From the NCBI RefSeq assembly GCF_016785945.1, contig NZ_JAEMEF010000002.1, forward strand, positions 186,001 through 250,000: 64,000 bases of DNA, in the 5' to 3' direction. This document shows, piece after piece, positions 20,806 to 30,393 of this stretch (its first letter is position 1; each line of letters starts with the position of its first letter). The notes beneath the pieces are model-generated. The model was not told the origin of the DNA. It did no database searches and worked only from the letters and a program-made list of their open reading frames with translations. The position numbers and the translations under genes are program-made. This stretch comes from Olleya sediminilitoris (GTDB lineage: Bacteria; Bacteroidota; Bacteroidia; Flavobacteriales; Flavobacteriaceae).

Positions 20806-22143
20806 ATGTCTGATGATTTTGATTTATTAGAAACAAACTCTAATGAAAAAACCGAAAAAGTAGATGTCAATTGGGGAAAAGCAATTGATACCATGAAATC
20901 TAAACTAGCACAAGAGGACGATCCAGAAAGTCGTCAAAAAATCTTGAATGCGACATTAGATGACGTTGTCGGAATGGCAGAAAAAGATCGTACTACACTT
21001 TTAGATGCTATTAAAGATTTAACAGATTACCAAGACGAGGTTGGTATTCTTTTTGAACGTTTTTCATCTTTAAACGAGACAGAACAAAAAGTCATTGACG
21101 ATGCTCAAAAAGCATTAGAACGTTCTAAAATAGAATTAGAAGATGCACAAAACAAACCAGACACTTGGTGGAATAACCTTTGGGGACGCAAAAGCAAAAT
21201 TAAAGCTGCCGAAAAAGCTGTAGAAACTGCCGAAAAAGTAAGAGCAGGAGCAGACAACAAAGCAAAAGCTATGTTCCAAGAGCGTATAGAAAGTGCAGAT
21301 ATCCAAACCTTATTAAGTGAACTGTCATACAAATCTCAAGCAGCAGTAACACGTCTTAAAAACCGTGAGGTAGAAATCAAAGAAGTAGAAGATAAGCTAC
21401 AAGTAGCAATAGTAGAAGCCTCTAAAAACCATACCAAAGCCTTAGAGAAAAAAGCAGAGACAGAAACTAAACTAGAAACACAATACGCTTTACTAAAGCA
21501 AGCACGTCAAGCCTTAGAAGAAGTTGCAGATAAACAATCTACAGAATACTCTGAAGCATTATCAAAAGTAACAAAACTAGAGCAAGAAGTAGAAGAGTTA
21601 GAAGGACTTAAAAATGCTTACACAACACTAGCAGCATCAAAAGATAGCTTTGTGCACAAGCATAATTTAACAATAAAAGTATTAACATCATTACGTAGTA
21701 ATCTACAAACACATCGTGCAAAATTAAAGTCAGATACAGAAGAGCGTCTTAAATATTACGACGGTTATGTAGTGGCATTAAAAGCACGTACAGATCAAGA
21801 GTTTGCTGCTATTTTAGAGCATTTAGGAGTTAAAACAGATGAGCATATTGGAGAGACCTTAGCATCAATGCATACCGCAAGTGCAAAAGCACGTCAAGAG
21901 ATGATGGACAACATTCCAGTACACGAAAAAGTTATGCAAGGTGTATACCGTAGTTATGCAGAAGCGTTACAGGAAATCAGAGCTAAAGATGTAGATATCC
22001 AAAAGAATTTTGCAGACCGTTATGGTATTGACATGAAAGAGATTTTTGAAGAATATTACAACTCTGACAATGCACCTTCAGGAGACGATGCACCAGCAGG
22101 AGCACCAAAACCAGAAGCATCAAACGACGATTTGTTATCTTAA
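20806..22143 (+). CDS. Large coiled-coil protein, first gene of the AAA+ locus
   Basis: A 445-residue, very acidic and helical protein without signal or membrane segment. Residues about 100-300 are long coiled coils rich in A, E, K and Q (KIKAAEKAVETAEKVRAGADNKAK; VEIKEVEDKLQVAIVEASKNHT; ATKLEQEVEELEG-like heptads). A WWNNLWG patch near residue 121 could be an amphipathic membrane contact. The C-terminal 30 residues are disordered and acidic (DDLLS end). Databases sometimes call such proteins microtubule-binding, which is not meaningful here. It heads eight same-strand genes including an AAA+ ATPase; an oligomer-forming partner of that ATPase is my inference. Codon use suggests high expression. 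Confidence 0.8.
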   Translation: MSDDFDLLETNSNEKTEKVDVNWGKAIDTMKSKLAQEDDPESRQKILNATLDDVVGMAEKDRTTLLDAIKDLTDYQDEVGILFERFSSLNETEQKVIDDAQKALERSKIELEDAQNKPDTWWNNLWGRKSKIKAAEKAVETAEKVRAGADNKAKAMFQERIESADIQTLLSELSYKSQAAVTRLKNREVEIKEVEDKLQVAIVEASKNHTKALEKKAETETKLETQYALLKQARQALEEVADKQSTEYSEALSKVTKLEQEVEELEGLKNAYTTLAASKDSFVHKHNLTIKVLTSLRSNLQTHRAKLKSDTEERLKYYDGYVVALKARTDQEFAAILEHLGVKTDEHIGETLASMHTASAKARQEMMDNIPVHEKVMQGVYRSYAEALQEIRAKDVDIQKNFADRYGIDMKEIFEEYYNSDNAPSGDDAPAGAPKPEASNDDLLS

Positions 22144-22159
22144 AATTATTATAGCGTTT

Positions 22160-22190
22160 CCTACTTTAGCTTTTAACTAGCTAAAGTAGG
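22160..22190. repeat. 11-bp inverted repeat, first part of a structured intergenic element
   Basis: CCTACTTTAGC (22160-22170) pairs perfectly with GCTAAAGTAGG (22180-22190) across a 9-base loop. No T run follows, so it is not a standard terminator. It could partially insulate the coiled-coil gene from the genes downstream by RNA processing or stability. Confidence 0.7.
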
Positions 22191-22320
22191 TCAGGCTTTA
22201 CGTTATATCTTTTGCAAAAAAAAAGCAAAAGGATGCCACTACAATCCTTAACGCGCTTACTCAAAGACTTACTCAGACTATTTAAACCTTAGTTTTAGTC
22301 AATAATTACAATTATTATCA
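22191..22320. repeat. Candidate intergenic repeat element with a second hairpin and direct repeats
   Basis: After the first hairpin comes CTTTTGC-A9-GCAAAAG (about 22209-22231), then AACGCGC, then CTTACTCA twice (22256-22263 and 22268-22275). The composition and nested hairpins resemble repeated extragenic elements of flavobacterial genomes; I infer this and cannot show other copies in this window. Confidence 0.4.
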
Positions 22321-22329
22321 AAAAATAAA

Positions 22330-23385
22330 ATGAGTATAAACCACATTGTCACACCATTAGATTCTGCAATACTAGACAGTAAAGAGCAATATGTTTTTTA
22401 TCATAAAAAAGTAGATTTTGCACTAAAAGAATTAATAGTTGGCGTACAACAAAACGGGTTATGCACACCACAAGAAGTTGTGTTTTTTAAGCAATATTGT
22501 GATCTGTTATTATATTCTATAGAAGCCATGCGTGTCAAGTACATGTATGATGAAGAAGATAACATGAAGGTGGATGTTACTGACTCAGGTTTTCCTAATT
22601 ATCTAGAATTTAGATACCTTTTTAACGACTTGTCATTACGAGATAATTATTTAAACAAACTTAAAGACGTATCAGAACTTCAAGACGAATTTTTAGATCA
22701 ATTACTTCGTAAAAAACAACCCGTAAAACGCGATAAATTATACCAAGCAGCATCAATAGTTTATTATACTTCAGTAGAGCAGCAATATATTTTTAACCGT
22801 TTTGTACAAGGAAAAATAATAAAAGCACCAGAAAATAGCGAAGCCAAATTTATGACTAGCTGGAGTTTTTATGACGTCTCATTAAACAGACCATTTATCT
22901 GCTTTATGTATTTTGATTATGATGGTAATGATCCACTTAAAGAAAAAGATGACATCTATGAGACACTAAAAGCAGTAGCAGATCGTAAAATGAATATGGA
23001 TACCATGGCTTATGGTATTGATAAACGTTTAAAAAATGTATATCCAAAATATTTTAAGCGTATAGATGTAGGTGCTTTTCATAATGTATTTGCTAAAGAT
23101 GATAATGATTTAACACATACCATACTAGACGCTATTAGTAAAAAAGAAATTCCGTTAGAAGCTTACGCTTTATCCTTAAAAATACACGAAGTATATACAG
23201 GAGGCGAATTTAAAGAAGGTGGATATTTTAAAAAACAAATTCTTCAAAATTGGAGTACACCAATCAAAGAAGGTTTCGTGTTTGCACCACATCGTATTAT
23301 TCAATTATTATACAACAAAAACCCAGAAATTATGAATAAGTTGGCAAAACCACCTTTTCAAGTTTCAGATTTAAAAATCAAATAA
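22330..23385 (+). CDS. Uncharacterised 351-residue protein of the AAA+ locus
   Basis: A soluble, mixed alpha/beta protein that I do not recognise. No signal peptide, membrane segment or coiled coil. The N-terminal half (1-165) is helical with DNYLNKLKDVSELQDEFLDQL; the middle contains TSWSFYDVSLNRPFICFMYFDYDG, likely a beta-rich core; the C terminus ends with FVFAPHRIIQLLYNKNPEIMNKL. It lies 186 bases after the coiled-coil gene, downstream of a structured intergenic region, and 63 bases before the AAA+ gene, so it is probably an adaptor or partner of the ATPase (inference from context only). Confidence 0.75.
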   Translation: MSINHIVTPLDSAILDSKEQYVFYHKKVDFALKELIVGVQQNGLCTPQEVVFFKQYCDLLLYSIEAMRVKYMYDEEDNMKVDVTDSGFPNYLEFRYLFNDLSLRDNYLNKLKDVSELQDEFLDQLLRKKQPVKRDKLYQAASIVYYTSVEQQYIFNRFVQGKIIKAPENSEAKFMTSWSFYDVSLNRPFICFMYFDYDGNDPLKEKDDIYETLKAVADRKMNMDTMAYGIDKRLKNVYPKYFKRIDVGAFHNVFAKDDNDLTHTILDAISKKEIPLEAYALSLKIHEVYTGGEFKEGGYFKKQILQNWSTPIKEGFVFAPHRIIQLLYNKNPEIMNKLAKPPFQVSDLKIK

Positions 23386-23448
23386 ATAGACTAAACAGTT
23401 TAAGTTTTTAGTATTAAAATTATTAACTGTTAACAGAAAACCCAAAAC

Positions 23449-25404
23449 ATGGAACACAATTCAACTTTCCCTATAAAAAAATCAGAATTAGACGTTTTAC
23501 GTGACGAAGCTTCATCATATTTAAAAAGTATAAGTTGGGAGCAAGGTGGACGTGCTAAAAACAAAGATAAAGAAGCAAAAGACGAGTCTATTTTATTGTA
23601 CTTATCTAAAGCCAATAATGGGTCTTCAACGTCAATAACTTCGGTTTCTAAAACCATTTTAGCATTAAAAAAACGATTATTACCAGATTCGGTAGCCATA
23701 CCAATTCTTTTAAATCAAACATTATATGCTGTTCAAGAAGGTTTAACCTTAGGGATTTGGATTAAAGATAGTTATTATGATGCCTCAGGTTTATCTAGTT
23801 TAAGCGAGCGTAAATCGACATTTGATACTGATGGTAAACGTGAATATGAAAGTAAAATGCAAACCGCAAGTGCTTTTATGTTATTTGCTTCAGCGTATAA
23901 AATTTTACATTTATTAAAACCTCATGCTTCAGACGATTTAAGTGTAATGAAGCAAAAATTTGCAGGTATACCAGAATTGTCATTACTATCACCATTAAAA
24001 GCTATATCTTGTGCGTTGTTTTATTATGATAAATATTTAGCACATCCTGATATTGTTAAGTCAGATAAAGATGTTGCTGATTTTACAGTAGTGTTTTTTG
24101 AAGCTTTAATAGACGAGATTAACTTACGTAAAAGTAGCCTAGATTTTACAGAAACAATTGTTGATAGAACTTATAAATTAGAAAATAGCGATTTTGCTAT
24201 TTCTGGTTGGGAAAACACATTTCAAGGCACAGCAAAAAGTATTGAATTTAATAAAATTAAATTTGAACAAATTGTTGGTAACAGAGATGCAAAACACTTT
24301 TCTAGACGTTTAACAGAGCGTATGTTAAGCTATGATTTTGAAGCAAAGAAAAATCCTTTTCAAGAGCTTGGTGGATTTATGCCAGTTTTTATGGGTTACG
24401 GTATTCCTGGTACAGGAAAAAGTATGTTAATTGCTGCAATAGCAACACGTTTAAAAGAGCATTGTGATAATTTGGATATACCGTTTTTATTTCACCCAAT
24501 GCCTGACACTTTAATTAGTACTTTTCAAGGTGGATCTGCTGAGAAAATGGTAGATTGGATGAAACCAATGCAAGATCCTACAAAATTAATTTTTGCACCT
24601 ATTGATGATGCTGAAAACAATCTACAAGAGCGTACAGCTCAAGGTGTGTCTGCAGGTGTAAAGGAAGTTATTGGTGTATTTTTAAGATATACAGAAGGTG
24701 CTTATGCGGTAAATTACGGTAATAGCTCGATTGGTTTATTTACTAACCTTCCAGAAATGTTAGATAAAGCAGTTATTTCTCGTGTTCAAGGTCGTTTTAA
24801 AATTGATGGAGCAAGAACAGAGCATGATTTTTTAGACCAAGATCATTTATGGTGGAGTAAGTTAGATAAGACTATGCCAGACTTTGTTAATATGCAAGGT
24901 CCTGCAGATTATAAATATTTACAAGATCAAGGTTTAGCAACTAATATGGGAGAAATCTTAAAAGTATCTGAAAAACCTACAGAGTTACGTGTGTTAGAAG
25001 CGTATGACAAAGCCGAAAAACAACATAAAGCTACAGATCATTTATTTTACGCAACTTTATATAAAGAGATTCAAAAAATATTTCCGTTTTTCTCTTCTCG
25101 TGATGTTCGTAACATACAAAGTGCAGTATCATTACGATTAACAGATTTTGATTTAGAACAAAGCTGGTTTGATAATCCAGAAACATATTTCAAAAAAGAT
25201 TACCAAACTAAATTTAACATGTTACAAGAGTTAATGAAGTCTAACATGAAAGGATTAAACTTTTCTGAAATTAGAAGACAAGAAGTAGTGCGTTATTTAG
25301 ATAATGTAGCCACCATTGCAGACACTGATTTTAAACGTAAAGTAGATGCTAGAATAAACCAATTAAATATTGAGACTAAAGCTAGAGAGCAGTTTGGTGC
25401 ATAG
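23449..25404 (+). CDS. AAA+ ATPase, core of the coiled-coil/AAA+ locus
   Basis: A 651-residue AAA+ ATPase. Residues 1 to about 280 form a helical N-terminal domain. The ATPase core has Walker A GIPGTGKS at residues 318-325, a pore-loop-like TFQGGSAEK near 361, an atypical Walker B IFAPIDDAEN (IDDAE at 385-389), sensor 1 FTNLPEM, and an arginine-finger-like SRVQGRF. The FQGGSAEK segment recalls the GESE region of classical Vps4/katanin/FtsH-type AAA proteins. About 200 C-terminal residues are helical. No membrane segment. It probably remodels or disassembles a partner, most likely the coiled-coil protein at 20806. I do not recognise a named family. Confidence 0.85.
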   Translation: MEHNSTFPIKKSELDVLRDEASSYLKSISWEQGGRAKNKDKEAKDESILLYLSKANNGSSTSITSVSKTILALKKRLLPDSVAIPILLNQTLYAVQEGLTLGIWIKDSYYDASGLSSLSERKSTFDTDGKREYESKMQTASAFMLFASAYKILHLLKPHASDDLSVMKQKFAGIPELSLLSPLKAISCALFYYDKYLAHPDIVKSDKDVADFTVVFFEALIDEINLRKSSLDFTETIVDRTYKLENSDFAISGWENTFQGTAKSIEFNKIKFEQIVGNRDAKHFSRRLTERMLSYDFEAKKNPFQELGGFMPVFMGYGIPGTGKSMLIAAIATRLKEHCDNLDIPFLFHPMPDTLISTFQGGSAEKMVDWMKPMQDPTKLIFAPIDDAENNLQERTAQGVSAGVKEVIGVFLRYTEGAYAVNYGNSSIGLFTNLPEMLDKAVISRVQGRFKIDGARTEHDFLDQDHLWWSKLDKTMPDFVNMQGPADYKYLQDQGLATNMGEILKVSEKPTELRVLEAYDKAEKQHKATDHLFYATLYKEIQKIFPFFSSRDVRNIQSAVSLRLTDFDLEQSWFDNPETYFKKDYQTKFNMLQELMKSNMKGLNFSEIRRQEVVRYLDNVATIADTDFKRKVDARINQLNIETKAREQFGA

Positions 25405-25440
25405 TTTTAAGTTTTAATACATTAAAGTCAAGTTTTATAT

Positions 25441-26031
25441 ATGAATAACAACCGAATTAAAAATCTTAAAATCAATTTACTTTCTGACCATTGGTATACT
25501 TTAAACAAGTTAACTTATGATTATTTACAAAGTAATGGTCAATGGACAGAGGTTGTTAGAGAATGTTATGATAAAGGTGATGGAGCTGTTATTTTATTGT
25601 TTAATAAAACAAAAAAAACAGTAGTGTTAACCAAACAGTTTCGTATACCCACTTTTGTTAACGGTAATGAAGATGGTTTTTTAATAGAAGCTTGTGCTGG
25701 ACTTTTGGATAATGATTTACCTGAGGATTGTATTAAAAAAGAAGTAAAAGAAGAAACAGGTTATAAAATTGAACACGTAGAAAAAGTAATGGAAGCGTAT
25801 TCTGCACCTGGAGCTGTAACAGAAATTTTACATTATTTTATTGCAGAATACACAGGTGATATGAAAATTAATGAAGGAGGTGGAGCAGTCAATGAAACTG
25901 AAGATATCGAGGTTTTAGAAATGTCTTTTGAATCTGCAGTAAATATGATAAATACAGGCGAAATTAAAGATATAAAAACCATTTGTTTGTTGCAGTATGC
26001 ACAGATAAATAACATATTTATTAATAGCTAG
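25441..26031 (+). CDS. nudK: NudK-like Nudix hydrolase (GDP-mannose/ADP-sugar pyrophosphatase type)
   Basis: A 196-residue Nudix hydrolase aligning along its whole length with E. coli NudK, as I recall that sequence: VRECYDKGDGAVILLFN, VVLTKQFRIPTFVNGNEDGFLIEACAG, and the Nudix box GLLDNDLPEDCIKKEVKEETGY at about 88-109, then SAPGAVTEILHYFIAEY. In E. coli NudK the residue after LLDND is Glu; here it is Leu. The core EVKEE metal-binding glutamates are kept. NudK-type enzymes hydrolyse GDP-mannose or ADP-ribose-like substrates. It is embedded in the AAA+ operon (36 bases after the ATPase, 9 before the next gene), so a nucleotide-linked housekeeping role for that locus is possible. Confidence 0.86.
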   Translation: MNNNRIKNLKINLLSDHWYTLNKLTYDYLQSNGQWTEVVRECYDKGDGAVILLFNKTKKTVVLTKQFRIPTFVNGNEDGFLIEACAGLLDNDLPEDCIKKEVKEETGYKIEHVEKVMEAYSAPGAVTEILHYFIAEYTGDMKINEGGGAVNETEDIEVLEMSFESAVNMINTGEIKDIKTICLLQYAQINNIFINS

Positions 26032-26040
26032 TATAAACTT

Positions 26041-26670
26041 ATGAGCAATAAAACAACTGGTAGTAAATTATCACAATTTGGATTACAAGATTATTTGTCA
26101 ATTGGTTATTTGTTTTTGTTAATTTTAGGTGTTGTATATGAGACTATTTATTATAAGTTTTTAGGGATTAATATTTTAGAATATTCGTCCGTTTTAGATG
26201 TGTTAATTAGTCCCATAGCTGTAATGACAGGAAATTTAATTTTAGGACTGGCAGTTGTGTTTAGTATAATTATGGCTTATGTAATGGTTAAAATTACACC
26301 TAAATATTATAAATGGTTAAGCAAAAAGACTAAATATCAATCAGGAAAAAATAAAATTAAGCTAGAAAAAGCACAAGCTAAAATAAATGCTAAAGACGCT
26401 GTTATAACCATGATTGCTTTTTATGTCTTTTCAGTTTTTATAGGATTAGGTATAGGTAGTGGTTATAAAACCAACAAACGAGTAGAAACTAACGATTATA
26501 ATATAAGTCATAAATTAACCTTTGATAATGGTTTAACTCAAGATATTAAAATGCTAGGTAAAAATAGTTTGTATGTATTTTATGTTCTTAAAGATGATAA
26601 AGAAGTAATTATAGCACCTATTGAAGGTAATATAAAAATGATTAAAAAATTGAAGAAAGAAAATAATTAG
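26041..26670 (+). CDS. Uncharacterised membrane protein of the AAA+ locus
   Basis: A 209-residue protein with three membrane helices: about 20-40 (GYLFLLILGVVYETIYY), 57-82 (AVMTGNLILGLAVVFSIIMA) and 121-142 (ITMIAFYVFSVFIGLGIG). A basic loop of about 40 residues (TPKYYKWLSKKTKYQ, KIKLEKAQAKINAK) lies between the second and third helix, and a soluble C-terminal domain of about 60 residues follows. I do not recognise the family. Spacing of 9 and 5 bases to its neighbours ties it to the NudK-like and 411-residue genes. Confidence 0.75.
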   Translation: MSNKTTGSKLSQFGLQDYLSIGYLFLLILGVVYETIYYKFLGINILEYSSVLDVLISPIAVMTGNLILGLAVVFSIIMAYVMVKITPKYYKWLSKKTKYQSGKNKIKLEKAQAKINAKDAVITMIAFYVFSVFIGLGIGSGYKTNKRVETNDYNISHKLTFDNGLTQDIKMLGKNSLYVFYVLKDDKEVIIAPIEGNIKMIKKLKKENN

Positions 26671-26675
26671 GTGTA

Positions 26676-27911
26676 ATGCAAAAACTTAAACTAGCAAATC
26701 TTTACAGAAGCGAACTTATCCCTATTAGTGGTAAACTGGTAGACCGTTATAATCAATGTCTTCAAAAGTTAGGATTCTCACCAACCAAACTAACAAAGTT
26801 TTCAATTGATGGTATTGGTTATAGCCCAGAAATAGCTGAAGAAAAAGGGTCAACAATGTATTTAAATAATGGAGAGGCTAATCCACACGCTATAATTATT
26901 TCACCATTACAAAAAGGTAAACCTGTGTACTCACCATTTCATAGTTTTGACAGAGAAATGATGAAACAAGTGTTTCAAGTACATGGTCAAAAAATAAATG
27001 ACATAACCAGGGATTCAGCTATATGTATTGATTTTGATCAAGATATTGATGCGTTTTACGAGCCTCTTGATGTTTTAAAATATAACAAGGTTTATATTAA
27101 ATTTCATTTAGTTAATAACCTAGATAAAATACAAAAAGAACAACAACAGTTAATAGATACTTTTAGACATGGTAATAATTTTATTGATGAAGAATTACAT
27201 GCTAAAATTTTAGCTTCGGCTAAAAAATATGGTGATTTACGTGGTCGTGATTTAAGCTTACATAGTCTTCAATATCAAACAGACTCATTTTACACCAAAG
27301 CATTTGGAGGTGTTTATATGTTAAGAGATTTTATAACACCAATTGCAGTTTTTGAAGATAAAAAATGGTACAAAGAAGCCATAAAAGATACCATACAAGA
27401 CGTAACTATATTTCATATTCAACAACCCGAATTAATGGATAAGTTACGCGATCATGTTATTATTGAGCATGATTTGGAAGAAGCCCTAAATACAGACCGT
27501 TATCAGCGCATTAAAAAAATGGAATTTGCAATGGCTTTAAAAGATACACAGCATCCATTACGTGATATTTTAAGTGATCCTGTGTTATTTAAAAGTTATT
27601 TAAATAAACTGGATATTACAACGCGTAAACGTGTTATGGGTGTCGAACTGTATTTGGACAAACTAGAAGTAAGTAACCAATATAAAATAGCAGACGTGGT
27701 AGATGCTAATTTATTTAACGCATTGCATATTCCGCATAGTTCTTTAACAGCAAGGCATCAAGATCTAATTTGGAAGCTTTTAATAAATGTATCACCTAGA
27801 GATGTATTGTTTTTATATTGGTATGATAAAGAAGAGTTTTATAGACAATATAATACATGGGATGACTCATTTAAAGACTGGGTGATTGAAACTATTAGTA
27901 ACAATATTTAA
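26676..27911 (+). CDS. Uncharacterised 411-residue protein of the AAA+ locus (possibly DUF6638)
   Basis: A soluble protein without localisation signals. It starts MQKLKLANLYRSELIPISGKLVDRYNQCL and contains GIGYSPEIAEEKGSTMYLNNGEANPHAIIISPLQKGKPVYSP, a patterned region that could be an enzymatic fold. Later segments are helical. I believe this is the family listed as DUF6638, but that identification is from memory and not certain. Five bases separate it from the membrane protein upstream. No catalytic motif is obvious; HxD/ExxH-like combinations are absent. Function unknown; probable partner in the locus. Confidence 0.7.
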   Translation: MQKLKLANLYRSELIPISGKLVDRYNQCLQKLGFSPTKLTKFSIDGIGYSPEIAEEKGSTMYLNNGEANPHAIIISPLQKGKPVYSPFHSFDREMMKQVFQVHGQKINDITRDSAICIDFDQDIDAFYEPLDVLKYNKVYIKFHLVNNLDKIQKEQQQLIDTFRHGNNFIDEELHAKILASAKKYGDLRGRDLSLHSLQYQTDSFYTKAFGGVYMLRDFITPIAVFEDKKWYKEAIKDTIQDVTIFHIQQPELMDKLRDHVIIEHDLEEALNTDRYQRIKKMEFAMALKDTQHPLRDILSDPVLFKSYLNKLDITTRKRVMGVELYLDKLEVSNQYKIADVVDANLFNALHIPHSSLTARHQDLIWKLLINVSPRDVLFLYWYDKEEFYRQYNTWDDSFKDWVIETISNNI

Positions 27912-27975
27912 AAATTATAGACTAATTTAGTAGAGGCTATATAAGTAGCTATTATTACTAATCAAAAATAAAACT

Positions 27976-28512
27976 ATGGGTTTAGAAATTATTATATTTT
28001 TTGGAGCAATCCTTTTTGGGATTTTCTTGTATTGGACAGAGTCTAAAAGTAATAAGTTATATCGTACTTTTAATAAAATTTTTAATAGCAAAGCATTGCA
28101 AATGAAATCTACTGACACGAAAGGTTTTATTTATAAACAAGATGTTTTGCCAAGAGTTTTAACGGTAGCTATTTTATTTTTAGTTCTAGCTTTAATCATT
28201 CAGTTTTTAACACCAATAGCTATTTTTGGTAGTTATTATGGTATTTCCTCTTTAGCATCAGCTATTTTTGGAACCTTAATTGGTACGTATGTTGCTAATT
28301 TTGTTATTAAATCTGGAGAAGTTTTAGAAGAACAAACAGATAGTCTTGAAGACGTTGTTAAAGATGGCTTAAATAAAGGAAAAGAATTTTTAGAAGACCT
28401 TAAAACTCAAGACACAAAAGTTGTACAGGAAGCTAAAAAAGAAATTAAAGAGACACCAAAAGCACCAGAAAAAAGCGCAAGAGAGCGTTTAAAAGACAAA
28501 GGATTAATGTAA
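27976..28512 (+). CDS. Uncharacterised membrane protein with charged tail
   Basis: A 178-residue protein. Helix 1 is about residues 3-22 (EIIIFFGAILFGIFLYW); one or two further hydrophobic segments occupy about 55-105 (VAILFLVLALIIQFLTPIAIF and SLASAIFGTLIGTYVANFVI). The last 70 residues are strongly charged and probably helical (LEEQTDSLEDVVKDGLNKGKEFLEDL, KKEIKETPKAPEKSARERLKDKG). This layout, membrane hairpin plus charged amphipathic tail, fits a membrane anchor for a cytosolic assembly. Seventh gene of the locus, 64 bases after its neighbour. Confidence 0.72.
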   Translation: MGLEIIIFFGAILFGIFLYWTESKSNKLYRTFNKIFNSKALQMKSTDTKGFIYKQDVLPRVLTVAILFLVLALIIQFLTPIAIFGSYYGISSLASAIFGTLIGTYVANFVIKSGEVLEEQTDSLEDVVKDGLNKGKEFLEDLKTQDTKVVQEAKKEIKETPKAPEKSARERLKDKGLM

Positions 28513-28572
28513 TTTGATTATTAATCAAAACCATCACGATCTAAATGCAAGTTTTCAGCTTAAAGCTGAAAA
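28513..28572. repeat. Two hairpins between the last genes of the AAA+ locus
   Basis: TTTGATTA/TAATCAAA (28513-28529) and TTTTCAGCT/AGCTGAAAA (28552-28572, loop TAA). Neither is followed by a T run, so they are weak terminators at best and may modulate downstream expression. Confidence 0.5.
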
Positions 28573-28632
28573 TACTTTAACTAATAAATTATTCGGTTGT
28601 AATTATAAATTGTCAACCTAAATATAAAATAT

Positions 28633-30393
28633 ATGATTAAAAATTATTGGAATCAAGGCGGAAAACAAAAAACAATAGTTATCATTTTAGGTCTAATTGT
28701 ATTTGGTTTGTTATTCTTTTTAAGGGATGATTATCAACCATTATTACTATTTTTCCGTAAGTATATTTTTGTAATTTTAATAAGTGCAATTGTTCTGTTT
28801 TTTGGATTGCGTAAATTTCGTAACTCTGCTTCAACAGGAACTAGATTAGGTGTTTTAGGATTACTTTTAGCCTTTTTTGGTTTGTTATATGCTGCTGGTT
28901 GGCATTTTCAGTTGTATGATTACATGCGTACATACAATGTATTTAATGACTTAAATAAAATTGAAGTTGATGAGTTACCATTAACGCAAAACGAACGTAT
29001 CCAACCTTTACGTAACATTTTTTCTATGGCTAATGAAAGTGTAGGAGAAACCAAAGATGTATCCTTACCTCATTTAGTACGTATTGATGATCAAAATAAA
29101 TGGACTATGGCTATTCAACCAACCGAAAAATACGTTTGGCAAGGGATAAGCGATAATACAGAAGAAGTTTTTTCGGTATCAAGTACAACACCTTTTCCTA
29201 GATTTTCTAACGAAAACCGAATATCAGCAACCTTCTCTATTGGTGAATCATTAAAATTTAGCCGAAACACATACAATGCAGTTGTGCAACGTTTTAATCC
29301 TTGGATGTTATTTAATTACGAGCCAAGTGATACTTTTTACATGAAAAACGATTCTGGTCAATGGGTTGAAGTTGTAAGTTTAATTAAATGGAAAGGTTTT
29401 TTCTTTCCTTATCCAACTTTTGGAGGTGTTATGGTAATAGATAATGGTGCACACGATTTTAACGATTATATAGAGCGTGTAACCATCGGTAAAGGGACTT
29501 TTATAGCGCCTGACCAAATGAAAAATCATCCTTATTTGACGCGTCAAAATACTTTATCAGAAAAAGTATCTCGTTTGCAAGCCGAATCTTTAAAGTTTTT
29601 AGGTGGTTTTAGCGATCCATTACCTTGGAATATGGAAACTGCAGTAAAAATTCCAAACCTTCCTGATGATCAAAACCAGCAACCATTTGTTACAGATTTT
29701 GACTTTTCAGATTCAAAGTCAGATGCCTATAGTGGTCTATACCATTGGTTTGGATTAGAACCAGTAGGAGAGGAGCGTACCAGTTTAACGTTTAGTGTTT
29801 TTGTACCTGCTGATGGAACAAATAGACTATATTATTATGATCATGCATCAAAAAAACAAGGGTATGCAGGTGTATCTGCAATGCCTTTAAAAGTTATTGA
29901 ATCTAGAAAAGAATACGATTGGTCAGTAAATAAACCAGTAGAATTTAGACCATATATAAAAAATATTGCAGGTCGCAAACGTATGTTTTTTCTAGGCACA
30001 ATTTCATCTATAAAAGAAGAAGGTTCACAATTTGATGGAAGTGCAACTCCAGATTTAGCTTTAATAGATAGCGAATACAGAGATGTAGTTTGGATTGATG
30101 CTAAACACCCAAGTCAATGGGAAAAATCTGTTTACGACCAATTAAACGAAGCTTGGAGATCTAGTGAAGGTATAGAAGAGTTTTATTTTGACGAAGACAA
30201 AGCAACCGAAGCTATTGTTAAAGATTTAAATGATCAATATATGGCTATTGATAGTACAACAACATTGCCTAATGCTACTAAAACCGAATCTTTAGAGGTA
30301 TTACAACGTAAATATGATTCTATTTTAAAAGAAAAAGAAGCTAGTAAAATTGAAAGTCTAAAGCGTAAAATAGACTCGTTAGAAGGTCTTTAA
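28633..30393 (+). CDS. Uncharacterised 586-residue membrane protein, last gene of the AAA+ locus
   Basis: Three membrane helices in the first 100 residues (about 14-30, 37-57, 71-91), then a large, probably extracytoplasmic domain (about 100-500) rich in aromatic residues, for example PTEKYVWQGISDN and ESLKFSRNTYNAVVQRFNPWMLF, and a final coiled-coil segment (about 540-586, TESLEVLQRKYDSILKEK). I do not recognise a family. It ends one base before the convergent GNAT gene; the 16-base palindrome ATTTAAACGTTTAAAT (30393-30408) spans the junction. Together with the other membrane genes it suggests that the locus acts at the cell envelope. Confidence 0.73.
   Translation: MIKNYWNQGGKQKTIVIILGLIVFGLLFFLRDDYQPLLLFFRKYIFVILISAIVLFFGLRKFRNSASTGTRLGVLGLLLAFFGLLYAAGWHFQLYDYMRTYNVFNDLNKIEVDELPLTQNERIQPLRNIFSMANESVGETKDVSLPHLVRIDDQNKWTMAIQPTEKYVWQGISDNTEEVFSVSSTTPFPRFSNENRISATFSIGESLKFSRNTYNAVVQRFNPWMLFNYEPSDTFYMKNDSGQWVEVVSLIKWKGFFFPYPTFGGVMVIDNGAHDFNDYIERVTIGKGTFIAPDQMKNHPYLTRQNTLSEKVSRLQAESLKFLGGFSDPLPWNMETAVKIPNLPDDQNQQPFVTDFDFSDSKSDAYSGLYHWFGLEPVGEERTSLTFSVFVPADGTNRLYYYDHASKKQGYAGVSAMPLKVIESRKEYDWSVNKPVEFRPYIKNIAGRKRMFFLGTISSIKEEGSQFDGSATPDLALIDSEYRDVVWIDAKHPSQWEKSVYDQLNEAWRSSEGIEEFYFDEDKATEAIVKDLNDQYMAIDSTTTLPNATKTESLEVLQRKYDSILKEKEASKIESLKRKIDSLEGL

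Follow-up and report, generated by a model that had tools for sequence, protein, structure and literature searches.

A co-inherited coiled-coil, AAA ATPase and membrane-protein gene module in Flavobacteriaceae

In the 64,000-nucleotide stretch of the Olleya sediminilitoris genome analyzed here (contig NZ_JAEMEF010000002.1, positions 186,001 to 250,000; the whole stretch is referred to as the window and coordinates are counted from its first nucleotide), eight consecutive open reading frames (ORFs) occupy positions 20806-30393 of the plus strand, with minus-strand genes flanking them on either side. The ORF check of the window confirmed the coordinates of these genes, which a sequence-only reading, made without database searches, had singled out as a possible undescribed system. 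We refer to the genes as A to H; they encode proteins of 445, 351, 651, 196, 209, 411, 178 and 586 residues, respectively, and are separated by gaps of 186 (A-B), 63 (B-C), 36 (C-D), 9 (D-E), 5 (E-F), 64 (F-G) and 120 (G-H) bases. The close spacing of 5-36 bases that had been pointed out in the middle of the locus is correct and covers the four genes C-D-E-F. Scans for regulatory sites are uninformative: no plus-strand terminator-like site was found in the locus, with a scan total of four versus 4.0 in shuffled sequences, and 58 promoter-like sites were found in the locus versus 57.9 in shuffles.

All features described in the following are on the plus strand. A (20806..22143) is, as had been read, a long acidic coiled-coil protein, with a net charge of -23 and an all-helical structural model. 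Its Trp-rich patch is WWNNLWGRK (residues 121-129; 21166..21192), an aromatic/basic loop that is a candidate membrane contact, and after a variable linker the protein ends with the C-terminal peptide DDLLS (22126..22140). B (22330..23385) is a soluble protein without a known family. C (23449..25404) is an AAA+ ATPase with the Walker A motif GYGIPGTGKS (24394..24423), an aromatic pore loop F-Q-G (24523..24531; Y-Q-G in Proteobacteria), the role of which was assigned by eye from an alignment with FtsH, a Walker B motif I-D-D (24601..24609), in which Asp replaces the usual catalytic Glu, and the arginine-finger candidates R445 and R449 (24781..24795). D (25441..26031) is a Nudix hydrolase of the YffH/AdpP family, E (26041..26670) has three predicted membrane segments, and F (26676..27911) is a DUF6638 protein. 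G (27976..28512) has three segments predicted to be hydrophobic, and its charged C-terminal tail carries the conserved peptide SARERLKDKG (28474..28503), which also follows a variable linker. Finally, H (28633..30393) has three predicted N-terminal membrane segments and a large C-terminal domain. Thus, the count of three membrane proteins at the locus stands, with predicted membrane segments in each of E, G and H.

The conserved core consists of six of the eight genes, namely A, B, C, F, G and H. The loci from the genome collection represent the best 80 of 565 relatives, all of them Flavobacteriaceae by title except for one titled only Bacteroidia; orthologue counts of 88-91 given below include a few duplicate genomes. 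Of these 80 loci, 76 have all six genes in the order A-B-C-F-G-H, and A-B-C-F and C-F are found in two loci each; in these four incomplete loci, the contig as a whole measures 3.4-12 kb and breaks off inside F or shortly past it. In all 80 loci, the core genes are on a single strand. By contrast, the Nudix gene D is present in 58/80 and E in 7/80 loci, and D has the lowest median identity to its window counterpart (52%, with A and C at 86% each). Because the six-gene order recurs in 76 of the 80 loci, the arrangement at the eight-gene locus is not due to chance. The neighborhood comparison thus shows the genes conserved together, as the sequence-only reading had anticipated, for the six core genes, and assigns D and E the status of optional passengers.

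The same picture emerged from other samples. Eleven of 15 wider neighborhoods carry the cluster, all in the order A, B, C, F, G, H; the other four have weak AAA matches and no convincing second cluster gene. Read by eye, three of these weak matches (G034, G046 and G058) are FtsH proteins and the fourth (G010) is a different AAA protein, close to a 194-residue ORF that matches the H profile at 4.3e-4 in a small search. Four further genomes of the phylum sample keep the unit within the fetched stretch, two from A to H and two from C to H. In a presence survey of 60 relatives that covered A, B, C and H, the profiles of A, B and H were positive in an identical set of 20 genomes and in no others, and the C profile found those 20 plus four weak matches (three FtsH and one other AAA protein, by eye). 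In a family sample of 199 genomes from 198 genera, 62 genomes have A, always as a single copy, and 61 of the 198 genera (about a third) carry the module. DUF6638 was found in 5/395 genomes across the phylum, all of the same family, and in 0/14 control genomes. Of the 78 loci that have A, 58 have an ABC-F gene close upstream, 16 lack it and four are too short to decide; because it is absent in those 16 loci, the unit is kept without its flanks. We conclude that A, B, C, F, G and H are one co-inherited unit in Flavobacteriaceae.

Insertions in the gaps of this unit are varied: five families recur, with 5 to 16 members, and many others form smaller groups or occur once. For instance, a small-ORF family of 104-133 residues (16 cases) and a family of ~100 residues that is GIY-YIG-like by eye (7 cases) recur in the gaps of loci L055-L134, and a 442-residue protein, hydrophobic by eye, follows C in four Winogradskyella loci. 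In the two loci kept from C to H, which belong to one genus (L138:9789-16131 and L141:10106-16879), a gene for 1490-1618 residues and two opposite-strand genes lie between D and F.

By its sequence, C is shown to belong to the AAA motor class. It matches the Pfam AAA family (1.9e-8), with all Pfam matches confined to the AAA domain, and its profile finds the domains of Cdc48/VCP, proteasomal ATPases, Vps4, Pch2 and FtsH in the PDB, with Cdc48/proteasome/Vps4-type AAA motors being closest in sequence. Walker A and the [FY]QG pore loop are present in 91/91 flavobacterial and 5/5 proteobacterial C proteins. The atypical IDDAE Walker B flagged in the window is a fixed trait of the family, in that IDD with Asp instead of Glu is present in all 91 flavobacterial and all five proteobacterial proteins (96/96). 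A Glu-to-Asp change in Walker B may slow ATP hydrolysis. The arginine fingers are invariant in an 11-row alignment, and SRVQGRF is present in 91/91 flavobacterial proteins, with the five proteobacterial proteins counted by a loose pattern only. Compared with Vps4, C therefore has the AAA core (Walker A, sensor, arginine fingers and aromatic pore loop) and lacks the IDE Walker B with its catalytic Glu. Its N-terminal region of ~270 residues is without a known family, and no MIT domain was matched by Pfam in residues 1-262. PMC11237479 describes a PspA-linked ATPase with an inactive N-terminal AAA domain; a corresponding internal duplication in C was rejected, as its N-terminal and AAA regions compare at 0.1%.

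A is the most conserved member of the unit apart from the ATPase, with a median identity of 86% equal to that of C and 80-98% identity to the window protein among 88 orthologues. Because A changes as slowly as the motor, its surfaces are tightly constrained, much as is seen for machines working on a polymer. A stretch of ~85 residues (around 265-350) is almost invariant in the family, and the loop WNNLWGRK, which lies between long helices, is present in 79/88 orthologues; at this position, proteobacterial A proteins have the hydrophobic-basic sequences GIFFKKK, GIFSRQK, GIFSKQK and GFLSKKK. The C-terminal DD[LM]L[SG] is present in 77/77 proteins. Similarly, the G tail SAR[DE]RLKxKG is found in 69/76 proteins and the remaining seven differ by one residue. 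When a variable linker leads to a conserved terminal peptide, the peptide is often a partner-binding site, and those of A and G may be such sites as well.

In line with the statement that by eye none of the encoded proteins matches the ESCRT-III or PspA families, A had no match to PspA_IM30 (PF04012) or Snf7 (PF03357) in Pfam-A at E up to 1, in a search where the HMMER filters drop many weak matches. TelA (PF05816) was rejected as a relative of A: hhalign gave 0.1-0.4% compared to 0.4-0.5% for a control coiled coil, a weak negative as it used one flavobacterial TelA sequence, and there was no Pfam match; TelA is above cut-off in 1/199 genomes of the family. Weak matches of A to CofC (0.0034) and to SMC-type coiled coils were disbelieved.

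Among the other proteins, D is above the cut-off for the YffH/AdpP Nudix family TIGR00052 (164.1 versus 79.55 bits) and just under that for the NudK equivalog NF011585 (232.7 versus 234 bits), in agreement with its earlier description as NudK-like. F belongs to DUF6638 (PF20343; 7e-37, 127.7 bits versus a gathering cut-off of 27), a family on which a literature search found no paper. Its AlphaFold model is confident (mean predicted local distance difference test score, pLDDT, of 90.9; predicted template modelling score, pTM, of 0.86), and in structure libraries consisting of the PDB and viral models, 0/91 matches in the PDB and 0/74 in the BFVD viral models reached E<=0.001, and the best Z in VIA was 5.1, over 42 and 40 residues. 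F may possibly have a new fold. PDB sequence searches with the profiles of A, B, F, G and H gave no credible match; a weak match of B to a Csm6 chain (0.015) and one of G to ArcB (5.8e-6, 24.8 bits versus a cut-off of 838) were disbelieved. H has a mean column identity of 74% over the whole protein (29 rows), and its large C-terminal part is probably periplasmic, as judged by eye from the positive-inside rule.

Searches of plasmid records by tblastn with C and with F gave the same ten records, i.e. four Vibrio and six Rhizobiaceae replicons of 0.88 to 4.6 Mb. All six of the records that were inspected (L049-L054) code for a coiled coil, a second protein, an AAA protein and a DUF6638 protein in the same order, and these have 359/362, 371/382, 634/638 and 412/429 residues, respectively, in the two annotated types. 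In profile-profile comparisons with five Vibrio/Rhizobiaceae counterparts, the E values were 1.5e-10 for A, 7.8e-19 for B, 8.6e-51 for C and 4.4e-34 for F, and 20 wrong pairings had a probability of at most 3.7%. Because a single flavobacterial profile sees rhizobial A weakly (8e-4 to 1e-6), the homology of A in Proteobacteria rests on the profile-profile comparison and on position. PF20343 scores 199.1 bits in Vibrio and 256 bits in Sinorhizobium. At the sequence level, these comparisons show A-B-C-F as an older core common to Flavobacteriaceae and some Proteobacteria.

In two Sinorhizobium loci and in Shinella (three of four rhizobial loci), DUF6638 is followed by a DUF2333 membrane protein. 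A literature search found DUF2333 in one paper, beside an hcp3 locus, with no bearing on the cluster seen there. Profile comparison rejected H (0.5%) and G (0.2%) as relatives of DUF2333, and a 279-residue protein upstream in Vibrio had no match to G, H, E or B. A tblastn search with rhizobial A gave 11 records, the same ten plus Rhizobium leguminosarum pSK03. In pSK03 (L146:6777-9131), an A-like coiled coil adjoins DUF2333 at the site that holds the full core in Sinorhizobium, with a choline transporter and a thymidine kinase as upstream site markers. pSK03 is the sole exception to the all-or-none pattern that we observed, as far as that replicon of the strain is concerned, and it hints that A and the membrane protein are one part and B-C-F another. 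In Sinorhizobium loci, a small gene with an endonuclease domain also separates the AAA gene from DUF6638 (L050:10851-11255 and L054:10843-11286), and strain Ak57 also carries an ISRm16 element. The Sinorhizobium meliloti copy may have locus tags near SMc02733. PMC3687685 lists a ChvI-binding fragment inside SMc02733; the tag mapping is tentative and is given no weight.

The genome of the window has no PspA_IM30 or Snf7 match. Among the 60 relatives, PspA is over the cut-off in 0/20 genomes with the cluster and 10/40 genomes without it (Fisher two-sided 0.023), and in the 199-genome sample in 1/62 and 16/137 genomes, respectively, i.e. an overlap of 1/199 versus 5.3 expected (P(overlap<=1)=0.012, Fisher two-sided 0.025), with all of these statistics ignoring phylogeny. 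Here, the cluster and PspA surveys are taken as the same 199 genomes because size, family and listed handles agree. One genome, G605, carries PspA alongside a complete cluster. The rarity of PspA and the cluster in one genome is a hint only. The PspA neighborhoods of three genomes (L149, L150 and L151) comprise a 131-residue protein, PspA and proteins of 204-230 and 688-692 residues; next comes a very large protein, truncated where the stretch ends, with one additional gene in front of it in one case. A flavobacterial operon for PspA, a CesT-Tir-like protein, flotillin, a YuaF-like protein and an AAA+ protein is described in PMC11237479, and by eye we take the proteins of these neighborhoods for the CesT/Tir-like, YuaF-like, flotillin and AAA+ members of that operon.

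Based on these findings, we tentatively favor a model in which C is an AAA threading motor that remodels a membrane-attached assembly of A, and the unit is an undescribed envelope ATPase module. In this model, C would form an AAA+ ring and thread a protein segment through the ring by means of its aromatic pore loop. The substrate would be A, as a long coiled coil that assembles on the cytoplasmic side of the inner membrane. The conserved aromatic/basic loop of A would contact the membrane, and in Flavobacteriaceae the conserved C-terminal peptide of A would serve for its recruitment. B and F would act as adaptors between C and A, and G together with H (DUF2333 in several rhizobia) would anchor the assembly in the inner membrane, with the large domain of H linking it to the periplasm. 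ATP hydrolysis, perhaps slowed by the Walker B Asp, would then disassemble or reshape the assembly. We favor this model because of the co-inheritance of the unit and its retention where the upstream flank differs, the older core in Proteobacteria, the AAA motifs and pore loop in 96/96 C proteins, the conserved loop and tail of A, the predicted membrane segments and the rare overlap with PspA. The link to the membrane is suggested because G, H and DUF2333 each have predicted membrane segments and pSK03 keeps A beside DUF2333. Most likely, such a module would work like an ESCRT-III/Vps4 or PspA-type system as an analogue, for which we do not claim homology outside the ATPase; it is classed as possibly ESCRT-III/Vps4-like, not as a member, because A has no match by sequence and is not placed by structure. 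Thus, of the ESCRT-III/Vps4 and PspA logic proposed in the sequence-only reading, the AAA kinship of C, the pore loop and the rare coexistence with PspA speak for it, whereas it stays an analogy given A without PspA_IM30 or Snf7, C without a Pfam MIT domain and a Walker B without Glu. No characterized system was matched, and the suggestion of an undescribed system stands. A bolder version, in which the module is a non-homologous bacterial counterpart of ESCRT-III/Vps4 that stands in for PspA, with A as a new class of membrane coiled-coil polymer disassembled by an Asp-type Walker B motor via two adaptors, one of which (F) possibly has a new fold, and with lineage-specific membrane anchors, we consider rather doubtful.

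Several observations weigh against our model. That A polymerizes, binds the membrane and is the substrate of C is inferred. The model of A, all helical with long hairpins, is of low confidence (mean pLDDT 68.5, pTM 0.47), and its structure matches are to generic helical bundles: Foldseek gave 0/721 matches in the PDB at E<=0.001, and in VIA, which cautions that helical bundles with Z below ~13 may reflect only a common arrangement, A ranks highest with designed bundles (Z 14.5 and 12.5) and bundles of ClyA-type pore-forming toxins (Z up to 12.7), and below these with SMC, F-BAR, BAR and Vipp1 helices (7o3x: Z 9.0, root-mean-square deviation 5.8, 133 residues, 13% identity). In view of this caution, we take A to be simply a long bundle of helices, and the proposed structure check against PspA and ESCRT-III yielded Vipp1 only as one of many bundles. 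The DD[LM]L[SG] tail is missing from 5/5 proteobacterial A proteins. A membrane partner within the operon is not universal, since both Vibrio loci lack DUF2333, as does the R. leguminosarum TP16 locus, on the replicon of which none was found either, and no relative of G or H, nor of D or E, was found in seven fetched proteobacterial stretches (533 ORFs). The pSK03 replicon has A and DUF2333 without B, C and F. Finally, both the cluster and PspA are absent from 121/199 genomes, and the shared phylogeny of the genomes is left out of the exclusion statistics.

Other functions of the unit were considered. C could be an unfoldase for client extraction or quality control that takes apart client proteins in the membrane or bound to it. 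B and F would then serve as adaptors for the clients, A as the scaffold positioning the ring at the membrane and H as a sensor. This possibility, which we hold to be somewhat unlikely, accommodates the AAA motifs and pore loop, the presence of the soluble B and F beside C wherever loci are long enough and the conservation of H throughout its length. However, an A that is as conserved as the ATPase is beyond expectation for a passive scaffold, and no protease domain was found; as regards an FtsH-type protease, C has no membrane segment by hydropathy and no M41 peptidase domain in Pfam. Alternatively, G and the outer domain of H might form a trans-envelope complex that is built or energized by cytoplasmic A-B-C-F. 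In favor of such an assembly factor, H is conserved and is the last gene of the unit in the 76 complete loci, but no G or H relative was found in the proteobacterial stretches, which have DUF2333 (3/6 full-core loci) or nothing in the operon instead. Since these stretches retain the core, neither G nor H can be what defines its function, and we regard this explanation as improbable.

A closer relationship to known systems is less probable still. A could be a true, very divergent ESCRT-III/PspA homologue with C as its Vps4, in support of which A has a long helical hairpin to which Vipp1 can be aligned and C is related to Vps4 at the level of the AAA domain; however, with neither a PspA_IM30 nor a Snf7 match for A, no MIT domain found by Pfam and unrelated designed and toxin bundles outscoring Vipp1, we think that this is very unlikely. 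Most improbable in our judgment is an anti-phage defense system with an AAA ATPase. Although C weakly matches IetA profiles (1.6e-5), and D and A match PDC-S07 (5e-4) and the coiled-coil protein JetC (0.001), respectively, still more weakly, the IetA match covers the AAA domain only, the seven other proteins have no IetS match at E up to 1, and the module is single copy in 62/62 genomes. Moreover, a search of 50,697 phage records with the rhizobial AAA protein gave no match, and in viral contigs the family profile gave nothing confirmed, none of 33 pattern stretches being a relative.

In summary, about one in three of the genera sampled in Flavobacteriaceae carries this single-copy ATPase module, whose one named part is DUF6638. 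If A is a membrane polymer that is remodeled by C, membrane machines that pair a polymer with an AAA motor would have arisen at least twice in bacteria, from different polymers. The module shares with ESCRT-III/Vps4 and the archaeal Cdv system a coiled-coil partner and an AAA motor with a pore loop, and the C-terminal peptides on linkers and the membrane setting may be functional parallels. It differs from these systems in that A has no Snf7/PspA match, C has IDD instead of IDE and no MIT domain in Pfam, and no counterpart of B and F was found in them. With the PspA operon described in PMC11237479, the module has in common the combination of a coiled coil, an AAA ATPase and membrane proteins, and PspA genes occur in the same family; however, the proteins are distinct as far as compared, and the two systems share one of the 199 genomes. 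F is a member of DUF6638 (PF20343), a family itself without an assigned function. TelA (PF05816) is, like A, helical and of similar length, with no profile kinship between the two in the comparison with one flavobacterial TelA.

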